The notes under the pieces are model-generated. The model saw only the letters and a program-made list of their open reading frames with translations, had not been told where the DNA came from and searched no databases. The position numbers were made by a program, and so were the translations under genes. Shown piece after piece: positions 46,668 through 52,267 of a DNA stretch of 64,000 nucleotides (positions are counted from its first letter, which is position 1; each line of letters starts with the position of its first letter). Source of the DNA: Salinispira pacifica (GTDB lineage: Bacteria > Spirochaetota > Spirochaetia > DSM-27196 > Salinispiraceae); NCBI RefSeq assembly GCF_000507245.1, contig NC_023035.1:2271501-2335500 (forward strand), read 5' to 3'.

Positions 46668-48557
46668 TCAGGGGCCTACGTAAATGAGGGCGGTGTTGGC
46701 GGGGATATTCACACTTCCGGTGCCATCGACAGCAACGGTAATGGTGCTCCCCAATCCCGTGAGAGAACTGTCTGCTTGAGGAACAGAGCTGTCCGCGACC
46801 AGCGTCCAGGTTCCCGCCGGAAGCTGGGCTAATCCGAATCCGGGTTCTTCGGCATCTTTATAGTTCATGAGAATCAGAAAAGGTCTGTCCCCGGGAGCTT
46901 TGAGAGCATACCCCAAAACTCCGTCGTGATCCCAGTCAGAACCTGTGGTGTTCACCTGCCAGGCAAAGCCATCGCTGAAGCTGCTTCCATTTGTGTCCGG
47001 ATTTGATACACCCCGGCGGAGGCTGGGATGTGCTTCCCGCATGGCAAGAAGCTCCTGTACGTAGGCCAACTCATCCGCATTGCTGGTGAGGAGGCTTGAC
47101 CAGTTCATCTGGTTGTTTTCCACATCCACACCGCTTCCGCTGCCGGAAACAGGATCATCGCTATTTCCACGGTGGTCCCGCATAATTTCATCACCCATCC
47201 AGAACATGGGTACGCTCAGGCTGGTAAGCTTGTGAGTTAAGGATGTGAGAGCGAGTTGGGGTCCTCCGGCATGATAATACAGGGTACCCTCATCGTGACT
47301 GCTTGCATAGGCTATGGCTGAATCTGAATAGGAGTATCCATAATCCTGGGAGTGGTAGGTCACCGCCGGCAGATTGCTGTACCCAGCATCGGATAGTGCA
47401 GGATACATTGCATCCTTGAATCCTGCTCCCCAGCTGGAGATCCGGGCTTCCCCTTTTCCGCTGTTATAATTTTGAATAGCCGAGTTATGACCCCCGTCGA
47501 ATTCCTCGAAAATATAATAGCGGTCATCGTACCCAGCTGCATACAGATCATCAATCAGGTCAATCATCGCCTGGGAATCGCTGTTTTGTGTGGAATCGAA
47601 ACGGAATCCATCCACGCGGAATTCATCCATCAGATACGTAAGGCTGTGTTTTACATGTTCATACACAAAATCGTTTGTCAGATCCAGTCTGGGTCCCCAG
47701 TCGGTATCTCCATCGTAAAACTGTCCGCTGTTGATTTTATACAGGGGAGCATCGCCGGTGGTATGGTTGTATACCACATCCACAATCACTGCAATTCCCG
47801 CCTGATGCAGGGTATCCACCATGTGCTTAAAATCCACCAGTGCCTGCTCGCCTGAACCGCTTCCCATGCTGCTTTCTATGGCAGTGTATATATAGGGATT
47901 GTAGCCCCAGCTGTAAAATCCACCCGGCCATTCCTGTACAGGCATCAGTTCCACTGCATTCACACCCAGAGCTTCCAGATATTCCACCCGGTCTGCTACA
48001 CCGGCATAGGTACCCTCATGCCCGGTCTGAACCTGGTCGCCGGGAATGTTCGCTGAGTTGTCTACAGGTCCGCTGCGCACCTGCCAGGTGAAGTCCTGTA
48101 TATGCATTTCATAAATCACCAGTTGATCCCGCTCCGGCCGGCTCCAACTTCCGTCCCCCCAGGAGTATGAGGCGGATGCACCAGACGGATCGAGAACTAC
48201 TGAGTTTGCACCTTCATCATTGGTAATCAGCCTGCTGTACGGGTCGGCGATCCATTCACCCTCAAAGCTCTCGGAGCGAAACTTATATGTATCGCCGGGA
48301 CCGGCATCGGAAATTTCAACCCAGAAGGTCTCACCATCCCGATACATGGGTGTACTTGACCAGTCGTTGAAGTTGCCGCTGACGGCCACCTTTTCAGCAC
48401 CCGGAGCATATACGGCGAAACGGGTTCCGGTATCAGAATTTATATACTGAGATCCCAGAGCATAATCGGCCGGAAGAGGTTCTTCCATTTTTTTGCCGCA
48501 GCTTATGAAAACCATTGTCAGACCGGCGAATAATAGCAGTAGTTTACTTTTTATCAT
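46668..48557 (-). CDS. GH13 pullulanase/isoamylase-like lipoprotein
   Basis: A 629-residue lipoprotein with signal peptide and lipobox FISC (Cys20). Residues about 40-125 form a CBM48/E-set module (VAVSGNFNDWS, TYKFRSESFEGEWIADP). The GH13 barrel follows with region I DVVYNHT, region II DGFRFDSTQN containing the nucleophile Asp, region III YIFEEFDG with the acid Glu and region IV ASSHDEGT. GFYSWGYNPYIYTA recalls the conserved WGYNP of pullulanases and isoamylases. It should hydrolyse alpha-1,6 or alpha-1,4 bonds of starch-like glucans at the envelope. CAGGAGGG precedes the ATG. A terminator-like hairpin separates it from the upstream lipoprotein gene. Confidence 0.88.
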   Translation of the reverse strand: MIKSKLLLLFAGLTMVFISCGKKMEEPLPADYALGSQYINSDTGTRFAVYAPGAEKVAVSGNFNDWSSTPMYRDGETFWVEISDAGPGDTYKFRSESFEGEWIADPYSRLITNDEGANSVVLDPSGASASYSWGDGSWSRPERDQLVIYEMHIQDFTWQVRSGPVDNSANIPGDQVQTGHEGTYAGVADRVEYLEALGVNAVELMPVQEWPGGFYSWGYNPYIYTAIESSMGSGSGEQALVDFKHMVDTLHQAGIAVIVDVVYNHTTGDAPLYKINSGQFYDGDTDWGPRLDLTNDFVYEHVKHSLTYLMDEFRVDGFRFDSTQNSDSQAMIDLIDDLYAAGYDDRYYIFEEFDGGHNSAIQNYNSGKGEARISSWGAGFKDAMYPALSDAGYSNLPAVTYHSQDYGYSYSDSAIAYASSHDEGTLYYHAGGPQLALTSLTHKLTSLSVPMFWMGDEIMRDHRGNSDDPVSGSGSGVDVENNQMNWSSLLTSNADELAYVQELLAMREAHPSLRRGVSNPDTNGSSFSDGFAWQVNTTGSDWDHDGVLGYALKAPGDRPFLILMNYKDAEEPGFGLAQLPAGTWTLVADSSVPQADSSLTGLGSTITVAVDGTGSVNIPANTALIYVGP

Positions 48558-48590
48558 AATTCCCTCCTGGAAATTATTGCTTTTCAGGAT

Positions 48591-48622
48591 AGAAAAACAG
48601 CCCTGATGATATCAGGGCTGTT
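48591..48622 (-). terminator. Terminator/attenuator between the lipoprotein and GH13 genes
   Basis: A perfect 12-bp stem (AACAGCCCTGAT / ATCAGGGCTGTT) with a three-base loop is followed on the minus strand by TTTTTC. It lies between the stop at 48642 and the GH13 start at 48557, so it probably lowers expression of the enzyme relative to the upstream binding proteins. Confidence 0.85.
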
Positions 48623-48641
48623 AATTAAGACAATAGACTCA

Positions 48642-49589
48642 TTACGGTGCAGGACTCCAGCTGGCATAATTTGTCATATCAATGGTAACAGTGACTTCAT
48701 CACCAGGGGTAAGACCACTGAAAGTAACGTTACCGCCACCACTACCTGCCACCAGGTACTCAGTCAGAGAGCCCCATCCACCTGCATCATCAATTCCTTT
48801 GAATTCAATTGTCGAATTCGCAGAATACACAGTAATTGTTACCGTGCCTCCGGAAATAGTTTCCTGAGTAGTAAGGTCAGATGGATCCCAATCGGGAATT
48901 GCGGTATCGGGAGCGCTGAACAATGAAGGTCCAACGAACCCAAGGCTATCGCCATTGAAGTCATCTGCATTGATCAATGTGATGTTGATTTTCGCATAAT
49001 CTTCATCCTCAGACCCCCCTACTGTATAGTTAAAACTATACTCATCAGTAGGTACTACAACACCGTTACCTGCACCGGCTGTGCTCCTATCCCAGGCAAG
49101 TCCACTTGTAAATGCAGGACCTTCTAGAAACTGAATCTCCTGCTCGAAAGTCGGTATGATAACTTCATTCTCAGCATTTTCAAAACCTGAAACTGTGAGT
49201 ACGGCATTTATCAAACCGCCTTCAGCAGAGCTGTAAAGAGCTTCAATCTCATCAACAGGAATAGAAAGGGTTGTTCCGTCCGAGCTCAGCGTTGCATCAT
49301 CAATAGATATATCCTGCTCTGCTGTTGCAGTAGTTCCAGCTGCTGTAAAACTCAGTGCAAAGGATACAGATCCTGCTTCTTCACTTACGGCTTCACTGAA
49401 GTCCACATCAATAATGCTATCGGTTTCTGCCAAAGAGACGAAGAGGGTTGAATCATCGTAACTGGCAGTACCGGCTGAAGCTGTTCTTGCAGCCTCCAGC
49501 TCGGAGCTCAGTCCAGCCTGCAGCAGATCACATCCGGCAAGTGACATGATAAGAGCCACAGAAACTAAGGCAAATAGTACTTTTTTCAT
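48642..49589 (-). CDS. Lipoprotein of unknown family in the alpha-glucan locus
   Basis: A 315-residue lipoprotein: signal peptide with lipobox LAGC, Cys20. The rest is acidic, Ser/Thr/Gly-rich and beta-strand-rich with at least two probable Ig/E-set-like modules (about 40-160 and 190-315). The C-terminal module has LFSAPDTAIPDWDPSDLT, whose WDP region recalls starch-binding lipoproteins only loosely. No enzyme motif is visible. It starts with AGGAGA upstream, 10 bases after the small lipoprotein gene. Context suggests surface glucan binding; this is inference. Confidence 0.6.
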   Translation of the reverse strand: MKKVLFALVSVALIMSLAGCDLLQAGLSSELEAARTASAGTASYDDSTLFVSLAETDSIIDVDFSEAVSEEAGSVSFALSFTAAGTTATAEQDISIDDATLSSDGTTLSIPVDEIEALYSSAEGGLINAVLTVSGFENAENEVIIPTFEQEIQFLEGPAFTSGLAWDRSTAGAGNGVVVPTDEYSFNYTVGGSEDEDYAKINITLINADDFNGDSLGFVGPSLFSAPDTAIPDWDPSDLTTQETISGGTVTITVYSANSTIEFKGIDDAGGWGSLTEYLVAGSGGGNVTFSGLTPGDEVTVTIDMTNYASWSPAP

Positions 49590-49598
49590 TCTGTTCTC

Positions 49599-50042
49599 CT
49601 AATTGCTTACCGTGATGGTAGCAGGCACTGTGCTGCCATCAATTGTTATAGTACCCCGGGTGCCGAGTACAAGGTCTTCAATCTGGAAGTTCCAACTGTC
49701 ACCGCTAAATCCGTCTACGCTGTTTCCTTCGGTTGCAGGATACCAGGGACGATTATAGGTTCCAAGTTCTGTGATAGAGAAGATAAAGGTGCTTACAGTG
49801 ATATTTACTTCTTCACTGGTTCCTGCACCGTCGGTCAGAGTGATAGGCACTCCGCCTTCTCCGTCACCATTATTCCAGCCGTTAAAGTCTCCGGGAATGG
49901 CATAATCACCATCATCCGCGGGGAAATTAACAAGTTCAAATGTATACACCGCAGCATCAATATTATGCAGCAGGGCATTCTCTGCACATCCTGCAAACAT
50001 CACAACTGCTGCTAGTGAGAGTAGAATTAATAACTTCTTCAT
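49599..50042 (-). CDS. Small lipoprotein with CBM48/E-set-like motif
   Basis: A 147-residue lipoprotein with lipobox FAGC (Cys19). The mature part contains YAIPGDFNGWNNGDGEGG, which shares the G-D-F-x-G-W core with the glycogen-binding E-set of the neighbouring porin-like protein. The remainder is beta-rich (WNFQIEDLVLGTRGTITIDG). ATG at 50042 is chosen because AGGGGGAA precedes it; a longer frame starts at 50057, where it overlaps the upstream stop by one base. A glucan-binding accessory role is inferred from motif and operon. Confidence 0.65.
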   Translation of the reverse strand: MKKLLILLSLAAVVMFAGCAENALLHNIDAAVYTFELVNFPADDGDYAIPGDFNGWNNGDGEGGVPITLTDGAGTSEEVNITVSTFIFSITELGTYNRPWYPATEGNSVDGFSGDSWNFQIEDLVLGTRGTITIDGSTVPATITVSN

Positions 50043-50056
50043 GATATTCCCCCTCA

Positions 50057-52048
50057 TTAGAAGCTCCAGATAACACCGAAACGGAGCATGGACTCTCCGG
50101 CGCCACCTGTAAGATTGTCAAGTCTGAATACATGATCATCGCTGAATTTCAGTGAAGATGATCCGCCGTCAAAGGGATCCGCATTCCATGTGTAGTTGAG
50201 ATCAAGTGTAGGAGTATTGAGCTTTTCCCATTCAGTTGCCAGGCTGGTACCGATACCGAAACCGAAGGGTACGTCGCTGTCAACTGCATCTTCAGAATCT
50301 CCACGTGACCGGATTACCGCAGCTACGTTGGCAGAGAGGCCTTTATCAAGACCAACCCGTGCTGCAACTGTGTTGTATACCCAATCCAGAGGATATTCAT
50401 CTTCTGCAGCATCAAAGTCACCATGTCCAAAGCTCAGACCGTAGTCCAGAGTGATGGATTTCAGGAACTCAGAGATGCCTTTCCATGCAACTTCCAGTCC
50501 TGCTTCAGTGAACTTGCTCGCAGTAGGCTGATCAGCATCGGTAGCTTCTGCAACCTTGTCAACATTGAGCTTTCCATACATTTTTGCGGTAAGGTCCAGG
50601 GGAAGCACGTTCGCCAGGAACAGGTCAGCATAGGGCTTGAAGTACATATTCAGAGCTTCAGTATCGATGCTGTCAAAGTTGTCCATACCAACGTTGAAGT
50701 CAACACCTGCTTTGAACATATCAATTGGCTGAGTGCTCTGGTTCAGTTCAACATAGAAGTTACCCTGCTTGAGGTGTCCGTCATCACCGAAAATGGTGTA
50801 GGCGTTATCGCCGCCGTATTTCAGAGTAAGTCCGGCAGTGTACGCTCCATCCAGATCCAGGTTTGCCTGCAGTGCACCGGCCATCGCATCACCGTCAAGG
50901 GTGTCGTTGGGACCGAAGCTCAGCAGATACTGACCTTTGAGAGTCAGGATATCCAGGGGAGTTGCAGAAATACCGATTGCAGCCGCATTTCCGAAATCTT
51001 CGTTGAAACGAAACAGTTCGGTAGAAGGGCTGTGAACATTGTAGTTCACGGTAATGTCCATCAGGTCCATGAGACCGACAGTTACCCAGTTAAAGAGACC
51101 GTAACCTCCCCGCTGAGCGGTAAGACCGATCATGGCATCCAATGAAACAGGACCGAGCTGGCTGAGCATCTCACCATTGGTGATTTCGAGCAGTCCGTCG
51201 TTTGCATCATTTGCTTTCACAACATCGTAGATCACTGAATTGGAAGTGTTTTTCGCCGTTGCTGCAACAGTTTTCAGTCCCAGATAGTCACCTGAGTATG
51301 TAAGAGTGAATTTATTCACTGAAGGAATGGCACCATTCAGGCTGGTTACCGGGCTGAACGGAATACTTGCCAGTCTCTGAAGTCCGTCTGTGAAAGTTGT
51401 GTACGGAATTCTTGTACCCAGTGCGTTTGCTTCATACAAAGTAGTACTTCCGGACAGCGCTTTCAGCTCAAGATTCAGTTCAGTGTTATTTGCAACAGAA
51501 CCTGCAATGTTCCAGTAGCTGTCGGTTACCAGGTTTGAGCTGTTGAATTCATACCCGGAAACATCGCCTACTGCAAGGTCCCTGGTGAGGAACTTGTTGT
51601 CGCTGCGTACTTTGAAGGTGGTTGAAAAGTTCAAGCCTCCAGAGGCAGCAGCCGCTGCAGCAGCTTCTTCATCACCTGCCTGCATTGCAATAACCGCATC
51701 CACGACCAGACGTCCGTTTTTACCGCCGAACCCGTCATCTACAGTATCGGGTGCGCCGGGATCGGTAATCCATTCACCATCGACTACGAACTTGTAGAGA
51801 ATTGTTTCTCCACGCTGCGCTTCCATGGTGTAGGTCCAAATGCCCTCTTCGTTTTTTTCCATGGGATCGGACTCTGCGTTCCATCCCTGGAAATCACCGG
51901 CGATATTCACTGAAGATGCGCTATCATCTTCATAAGTGAATATGATTGTGACCGCATCCGCAGACTCTATTTGTACGTCTGCGAACAACGAGCCGCTCAC
52001 AATCAGGAGAAGAATAAGCATTGCGCTTATAAGAACTCCTTTTTTCAT
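50057..52048 (-). CDS. Outer-membrane porin-like protein with N-terminal CBM48/E-set domain
   Basis: A 663-residue protein. The signal peptide ends VSGSLFA. Residues about 30-120 form an AMPK/CBM48-like glycogen-binding domain (SVNIAGDFQGWNAESDP, LYKFVVDGEWITDP). A linker with a run of alanines (EEAAAAAAASGG) leads to about 520 residues of alternating amphipathic strands, Gly/Asn/Asp/aromatic-rich, ending in FGVIWSF; a terminal Phe is the outer-membrane barrel assembly signal. It is thus a probable porin with a glucan-binding domain at one mouth. The ATG at 52048 has GAGGAG five bases upstream; a longer frame to 52171 lacks support. First gene of the locus. Confidence 0.8.
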   Translation of the reverse strand: MKKGVLISAMLILLLIVSGSLFADVQIESADAVTIIFTYEDDSASSVNIAGDFQGWNAESDPMEKNEEGIWTYTMEAQRGETILYKFVVDGEWITDPGAPDTVDDGFGGKNGRLVVDAVIAMQAGDEEAAAAAAASGGLNFSTTFKVRSDNKFLTRDLAVGDVSGYEFNSSNLVTDSYWNIAGSVANNTELNLELKALSGSTTLYEANALGTRIPYTTFTDGLQRLASIPFSPVTSLNGAIPSVNKFTLTYSGDYLGLKTVAATAKNTSNSVIYDVVKANDANDGLLEITNGEMLSQLGPVSLDAMIGLTAQRGGYGLFNWVTVGLMDLMDITVNYNVHSPSTELFRFNEDFGNAAAIGISATPLDILTLKGQYLLSFGPNDTLDGDAMAGALQANLDLDGAYTAGLTLKYGGDNAYTIFGDDGHLKQGNFYVELNQSTQPIDMFKAGVDFNVGMDNFDSIDTEALNMYFKPYADLFLANVLPLDLTAKMYGKLNVDKVAEATDADQPTASKFTEAGLEVAWKGISEFLKSITLDYGLSFGHGDFDAAEDEYPLDWVYNTVAARVGLDKGLSANVAAVIRSRGDSEDAVDSDVPFGFGIGTSLATEWEKLNTPTLDLNYTWNADPFDGGSSSLKFSDDHVFRLDNLTGGAGESMLRFGVIWSF

Positions 52049-52076
52049 ATGGCTCTCCTCTTTTGAGAAACTTGTT

Positions 52077-52105
52077 TTATAATGTGAATAACATTCACAA
52101 AACAA
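52077..52105 (-). promoter_or_regulatory. Promoter of the alpha-glucan locus with an operator in the spacer
   Basis: On the minus strand -35 TTGTTT (52100-52105) and -10 TTATAA (52077-52082) are 17 bases apart, and the spacer (52083-52099) is exactly the palindrome TGTGAAT-GTT-ATTCACA. A protein bound there would block RNA polymerase. The start codon is about 30 bases downstream of the -10. Confidence 0.65.
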
Positions 52106-52186
52106 TTGCTCACACCTTATAGCTCCCGCATAGCGGGATATGTCATTCAGAGAAAAAGAGCCCTGACCCATGGACGGTTTGCACAG

Positions 52187-52215
52187 GAAAAATGCCGGAG
52201 CTGTTATGCTCCGGC
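52187..52215 (-). terminator. Terminator-like hairpin upstream of the alpha-glucan promoter
   Basis: GCCGGAGC-ATAACA-GCTCCGGC forms an 8-bp stem followed on the minus strand by ATTTTTCC. It may stop transcripts arriving from the HPr side, or act as an attenuator if a second promoter lies upstream. Confidence 0.55.
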
Positions 52216-52232
52216 GCCAACAATTAAGGAGG

Positions 52233-52267
52233 TGGAAACATTTCCATATTTGGTGGAAATGTTTCCA
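52233..52267. promoter_or_regulatory. Paired 14-bp palindromic operator-like sites
   Basis: TGGAAACATTTCCA (52233-52246) and TGGAAATGTTTCCA (52254-52267) are exact reverse complements with a seven-base spacer, and each is itself a near-perfect palindrome; centres are 21 bases apart, two helical turns. They resemble LacI-family operators except for the CA/TG centre, and lie about 130-160 bases upstream of the porin promoter. Confidence 0.65.

Follow-up and report, generated by a model that had tools for sequence, protein, structure and literature searches.

By what route might fragments of starch-like polysaccharides pass the outer membrane of a spirochaete? Such passage is little described in these bacteria, and the question is raised by a minus-strand operon of the salt-lake spirochaete Salinispira pacifica, whose first gene encodes a 663-amino-acid protein with a glycogen-binding CBM48 domain in front of a predicted outer-membrane β-barrel. 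The operon occupies positions 46,668–52,267 of the window, the 64,000-nucleotide stretch (contig NC_023035.1, positions 2,271,501 to 2,335,500) that was analysed as a whole. We consider it probable that this operon encodes a TonB-independent outer-membrane α-glucan uptake module in which the CBM48 of a porin captures maltodextrins.

The background of the strain fits the question: Salinispira pacifica L21-RPul-D2 was isolated via pullulan-derivative enrichments, and pullulan, starch and maltose all support its growth (PMC4511686). A preliminary description of the window had listed four minus-strand genes (a signal-peptide barrel ending in Phe, two lipoproteins and a GH13 lipoprotein) and had proposed that the barrel, the small lipoprotein and the GH13 enzyme share a G-D/N-F-x-x-W motif. 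The open reading frames agree with this gene set, and six-frame translation of the whole window contains exactly three occurrences of G[DN]FxxW, each inside one of these three genes.

A glycogen-binding domain on a predicted barrel

Residues 35–110 of the 663-amino-acid protein match the Pfam families AMPK1_CBM (E 7.3e-9) and CBM48 (E 7e-8), both above cut-off, and with 36.2 bits against a cut-off of 26.8 the protein belongs to CBM48. AlphaFold models this part as a CBM48 fold with high confidence (pLDDT ~90 over most of residues 31–120), and the best Foldseek matches of the model come from SEX4 and AMPK β, in each case from the glucan-binding domain; the match to the glycogen-binding domain of AMPK β1 (1z0m_B) has a TM score of 0.87, normalised to the target, at 1.7 Å. 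In AMPK β1, residues W100, K126, W133 and N150 are critical for carbohydrate (glycogen) binding (PMC4032982). Their equivalents here are W56, K86, W94 and N111, the last lying just past the Pfam match. Across 35 spirochaete CBM48-barrel proteins, the first site is W in 34, with one gap in a truncated protein, the second is K in all 35, the third is W or Y (21 and 14, respectively), and the fourth is N in all 35. The 663-amino-acid protein is thus the carrier of a genuine AMPK-type CBM48 that keeps both the fold and all four glycogen-contact residues of the AMPK β domain but, unlike it, sits on an exported bacterial protein of the outer-membrane type. The Pfam match and the confident fold uphold the earlier proposal that a glycogen-type CBM48 is fused to an outer-membrane-type β protein.

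The remainder of the protein, residues 138–663, is predicted to form an outer-membrane β-barrel, a prediction that the periodicity of its sequence supports well. Measured against shuffled columns, the alternation of hydrophobicity reaches a z score of 7.8 in the family profile and 4.1 in the 663-amino-acid protein alone, whereas the same measure gives about 0 and 0.4 in GH13 and GH53 controls. Most members of the barrel family end in W-x-F/L, which is typical of outer-membrane proteins. This part matches no Pfam family, as is also the case for all 24 members of the family alignment (0/24), and a PDB sequence search returned no match to it. A search of PHROGs gave no match either, and the barrel alignment contains no segment of sufficient conservation to serve as a query against viral contigs. 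Structure prediction, which had been suggested as a check on the barrel, yielded no confident barrel model, and the strand periodicity is strongly positive. The AlphaFold pLDDT of the barrel region is about 35, and the model is poor because only two usable sequences in its alignment cover the barrel. The absence of a confident model and of a Pfam barrel family would be expected of a secreted, β-rich glucan-binding protein that forms no barrel. Such a protein is nevertheless highly improbable here given the contrast in alternation with the soluble controls, the conserved C-terminal end, the length of the protein and its signal peptide.

Conserved partners and link to substrate

A profile built from the barrel alone matches 32 of 393 sampled Spirochaetota genomes. 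All except one, a weak and partial match, fall into the class of Salinispira, and one of the 31 in-class matches (G328) is itself only partial; in a class-wide sample, the barrel is matched in 31 of 395 genomes. A lipoprotein gene lies 3′ of the barrel gene on the same strand and within 142 bp for 40 of 41 intact barrels, 36 of these lipoproteins being recognised by a lipobox pattern and four by eye. Six genomes carry a barrel on either side of the small lipoprotein. In one related genome (L030:14207-15706), the gene directly upstream of the barrel encodes a lipoprotein with an Fn3 domain and, at its C-terminus, a domain similar to the small lipoprotein.

The preliminary description had assigned a CBM48 to all three motif-bearing proteins. 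Pfam confirms this for the barrel protein and the GH13 enzyme, but not for the 147-amino-acid partner lipoprotein, which has no Pfam match at E 1 and is not a Pfam CBM48 member. Its profile aligns with CBM48 in register, albeit weakly (hhalign probability 35%), and the protein is devoid of the other contact motifs of CBM48. As this lipoprotein family is found directly 3′ of barrels at α-glucan and galactan loci alike, the GxFxxW motif alone does not mean α-glucan binding.

The two kinds of loci are distinguished by the hydrolases encoded within 8 kb of the barrel, representatives of which were confirmed by Pfam. Barrels with a CBM48 have a GH13 or GH57 neighbour at 21 of 29 loci and a GH53 neighbour at none of the 29. 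Intact barrels that lack the CBM48 are accompanied by GH53 galactanases at eight of eight loci, by GH35 at four and by GH13 at none of the eight. The GH53 contrast has a Fisher p of 2.6e-8, a value to be read in light of the fact that the eight CBM48-less loci form one clade. In the tree, this clade groups with the Salinispira protein (support 99/98). Because of this topology, we decided against counting each of the eight galactanase loci as a case of its own. The presence of the CBM48 tracks the substrate, though via one evolutionary switch. As to the conservation of gene context among spirochaetes, for which the preliminary description had called, the linkage both to lipoproteins and to α-glucan hydrolases is retained.

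Individual loci illustrate these arrangements. The galactan loci, all Treponema-type (L159, L160, L161, L162, L164, L168, L178 and L179), comprise a CBM48-less barrel, the partner lipoprotein, GH53 and often GH35, and one Treponema-type genome (G316) carries a locus of each kind. On plasmid pTS2 of Treponema saccharophilum, the order is CBM48 barrel, hypothetical protein, α-amylase, maltose ATP-binding cassette (ABC) binding protein, two permeases and α-amylase; NCBI names this barrel protein "glycogen-binding domain-containing protein", which refers to the domain only.

Operator-like sites and layout of the operon

As first delimited, the operon ends with the last nucleotide of a 14-bp palindrome, the second of a pair in its presumed control region (Table 1). 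The corresponding pattern, TGGAAANNTTTCCA, is present genome-wide in six copies, which are spread over five loci, and the reversed pattern used as a control is absent. Each of the other four loci (genome positions C1:121634, 128892, 676791 and 1801782; L202, L203, L204) lies within 1 kb of GH13 (on the basis of genome coverage, the binomial p is 9e-8), and one copy, also near GH13, is located ~10 bp upstream of the start codon side of a gene of the LacI family (L202:9889-10884, genome C1:127888-128883). In some relatives, TGCAANCGNTTGCA sites or LacI genes are found next to the barrel. As operator-like sites are common to GH13 genes and a LacI gene, we infer that the operon belongs to a LacI-type α-glucan regulon, with LacI as the protein that would bind these sites. 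A gene for an MFS_2 sugar transporter is also found beside a TGGAAANNTTTCCA site.

The sharing of operator-like sites with GH13 genes bears on the notion that the 663-amino-acid protein is a general or structural outer-membrane protein whose CBM48 has glycan of the cell itself as its ligand or aids assembly, the linkage to GH13 being incidental. The CBM48 of many GH13 enzymes is structural, and the ~23 GH13 genes of the Salinispira pacifica genome raise the chance of fortuitous linkage. We regard this notion as very unlikely, however, as it has to contend not only with the operator-like sites but also with the retention of all four contact sites, the recurrence of the linkage in many genera, and the absence of the CBM48 exactly where galactanases adjoin.

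Table 1 Features of the operon and its presumed control region (positions in the window)
Feature	Position	Strand	Evidence
Putative CBM48-porin, 663 aa, signal peptide, C-terminal IWSF	50057..52048	-	ORF, Pfam, AlphaFold, Foldseek, strand periodicity
CBM48 / AMPK glycogen-binding domain, residues 35-110	51719..51946	-	Pfam, AlphaFold, Foldseek, contact residues
Predicted β-barrel region, residues 138-663 (~525 aa)	50060..51637	-	Hydrophobicity alternation; conserved C-terminal aromatic
Partner lipoprotein 1, 147 aa, Cys19, LHN motif, possible divergent E-set	49599..50042	-	Orthologues 3′ of barrels
Lipoprotein 2, 315 aa, without known domain	48642..49589	-	Pfam
GH13 lipoprotein, 629 aa, N-terminal CBM48	46668..48557	-	Pfam, catalytic motifs
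Operator-like palindrome TGGAAACATTTCCA, 14 bp	52233..52246	.	Genome pattern search
Operator-like palindrome TGGAAATGTTTCCA, 14 bp	52254..52267	.	21 bp from TGGAAACATTTCCA
Perfect palindrome TGTGAATAACATTCACA, leader of barrel gene, before start codon	52083..52099	.	
Possible leader element: terminator-like hairpin located after the operators and ahead of the barrel start	52194..52215	-	
Terminator-like hairpin, 12-bp stem, between lipoprotein 2 and GH13 genes	48596..48622	-	
aa, amino acids; ORF, open reading frame.

The two terminator-like hairpins listed in Table 1 are to be read with the finding that the number of such sites in the region does not exceed that in shuffled sequences. Lipoprotein 2 has weak similarity to the third-position lipoproteins of Treponema-type loci. 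The GH13 lipoprotein matches Pfam CBM48 (E 1e-12) and GH13 (E 3e-16) and carries the intact catalytic motifs DVVYNH, GFRFD, EEFDG and SSHDE, which establishes it as a GH13 member; it scores below the NCBIfam cut-off for each model among the matches listed.

Uptake model and comparison with known systems

We propose the following model for α-glucan uptake. GH13 lipoproteins would cut starch, pullulan or glycogen into malto-oligosaccharides, which would diffuse through the sugar-specific β-barrel without the involvement of TonB. The N-terminal CBM48, most likely located in the periplasm, would bind the incoming linear α-1,4-glucan chains and hold or steer them, thereby favouring entry, and the partner lipoprotein, encoded directly 3′ of nearly every barrel, would form a complex with the barrel. 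Uptake would be completed by additional cleavage and by a maltodextrin carrier in the inner membrane, and a LacI-type repressor would switch the operon along with the other GH13 genes.

The location of the CBM48 in this model is suggested by the topology of ordinary barrels, in which the strand number is even and both termini lie in the periplasm. An N-terminal domain is thus more likely to be found at the periplasmic mouth of the pore, and the "mouth" on the outside, as first envisaged, is doubtful. A CBM48 on the exterior of the cell, at the outer mouth of the pore, would capture the polymer directly, with the lipoproteins and the GH13 enzyme forming a surface complex around it. The pairing of lipoproteins with nearly every barrel, the lipoprotein nature of the GH13 protein itself and the ability of spirochaete lipoproteins to be surface-exposed are all in line with such a complex. 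We nonetheless find this arrangement rather unlikely, as the CBM48 follows the signal peptide and precedes the first strand, an end that is periplasmic in even-stranded barrels, and no threading segment is evident.

Alternatively, the CBM48 might be positioned inside the barrel as a gate or plug, so that glucan binding opens the pore and the protein functions as a ligand-gated porin without a TonB plug. The size and N-terminal position of the domain resemble those of a plug on a ~525-amino-acid barrel, and its aromatic and Lys/Asn contacts are conserved. However, a whole clade of barrels is without a CBM48, which means that barrels can function in its absence and makes gating of this kind quite unlikely.

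In addition to the poor AlphaFold model of the barrel, four observations weigh against an α-glucan uptake module as proposed above. First, the CBM48-less barrels, being one clade, represent one evolutionary switch and not eight independent tests. Second, eight of the 29 CBM48-positive loci have no GH13 or GH57 within 8 kb, four of them on contigs of ~6 kb or less. Third, with so many GH13 genes in the Salinispira genome, one GH13 neighbour is weaker evidence there. Fourth, the terminator-like hairpin at 48596–48622 sets the GH13 gene apart from the rest of the operon.

A broader reading, which we put forward tentatively as one that could well prove wrong, is that an uncatalogued family of glycan porins forms Sus-like spirochaete loci without a TonB plug or SusD, that an exchangeable N-terminal domain (CBM48 for α-glucan, absent for galactan) gates or feeds the pore, and that unrelated barrels of other phyla gained a CBM48 independently. 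The candidate porin family spans Treponema-type and free-living lineages, and its natural pair of substrate variants, α-glucan and galactan, allows specificity to be compared. In the open-access literature, to which our search was confined, we found no description of CBM48-porin fusions, of the barrel family or of such spirochaete loci.

Proteins with a CBM48 at the N-terminus and a barrel-like C-terminal part ending in F are also encoded, with a lipoprotein alongside, in Elusimicrobia, Endomicrobiia, WOR-3, Krumholzibacteriia, Latescibacterota and an unclassified bacterium (L046, L047, L048, L055, L074, L085, L094), and GH13, GH31 or an ABC transporter is found near three of these loci (L046, L047 and L048). 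They differ from the spirochaete pairs in that their lipoprotein carries a CBM48. AlphaFold models the CBM48 of these proteins poorly and the barrel not at all. Homology of their barrels to the spirochaete barrel was sought and is not detectable, which suggests that the CBM48-barrel fusion arose more than once.

Two other types of CBM48 protein were also observed. At L035 (7107-7790 and 7820-8419), a gene for an extracytoplasmic function sigma factor adjoins a gene for a membrane protein whose CBM48 is C-terminal and probably extracytoplasmic; similar proteins are encoded at L036, L040 and L041, and this type looks like a glucan-sensing anti-sigma factor, cf. RsgI of Clostridium. In Omnitrophota and Nitrospirae (L053, L062, L063, L065, L067, L068, L086, L119), a ParA-type ATPase carries a C-terminal AMPK-type CBM48, a fusion that gives this cytoplasmic, partition-type ATPase a tail of the glycogen-binding kind.

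Among characterised porins, the maltoporin LamB and the sucrose porin ScrY are sugar-specific and passive, a function here proposed for the spirochaete barrel, to which they have no sequence relation by Pfam or PDB sequence search. ScrY too has an N-terminal extension and, as Schulein reportedly found in 1995 (a reference given in PMC4753733), becomes LamB-like when 70 residues near its N-terminus are removed. The extension of the spirochaete barrel differs in being a folded CBM48.

With an outer-membrane protein, lipoproteins and a glycoside hydrolase co-localised, the Salinispira operon is, broadly defined, a polysaccharide utilisation locus, its shared regulation being suggested by the operator-like sites only. 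It resembles the Bacteroidetes Sus system (SusC/SusD/SusE/SusF/SusG) in that a single locus unites a barrel of the outer membrane and its partner lipoprotein with a GH13 lipoprotein and other lipoproteins, and in that the loci are matched to substrate. In contrast to Sus, the barrel belongs to no Pfam family, is much shorter than SusC and has a glucan-binding domain fused to it. Furthermore, the whole Salinispira genome has no match to the TonB plug of SusC-type proteins (PF07715) or to SusD_RagB (PF07980), the controls being positive for both profiles, which extends to the genome the earlier claim that no SusC or SusD homologue is visible. By descent, the operon is thus distinct from the Sus system, even if the two would work alike, and it would, if our model is correct, add a route of polysaccharide uptake that is independent of SusC and SusD.

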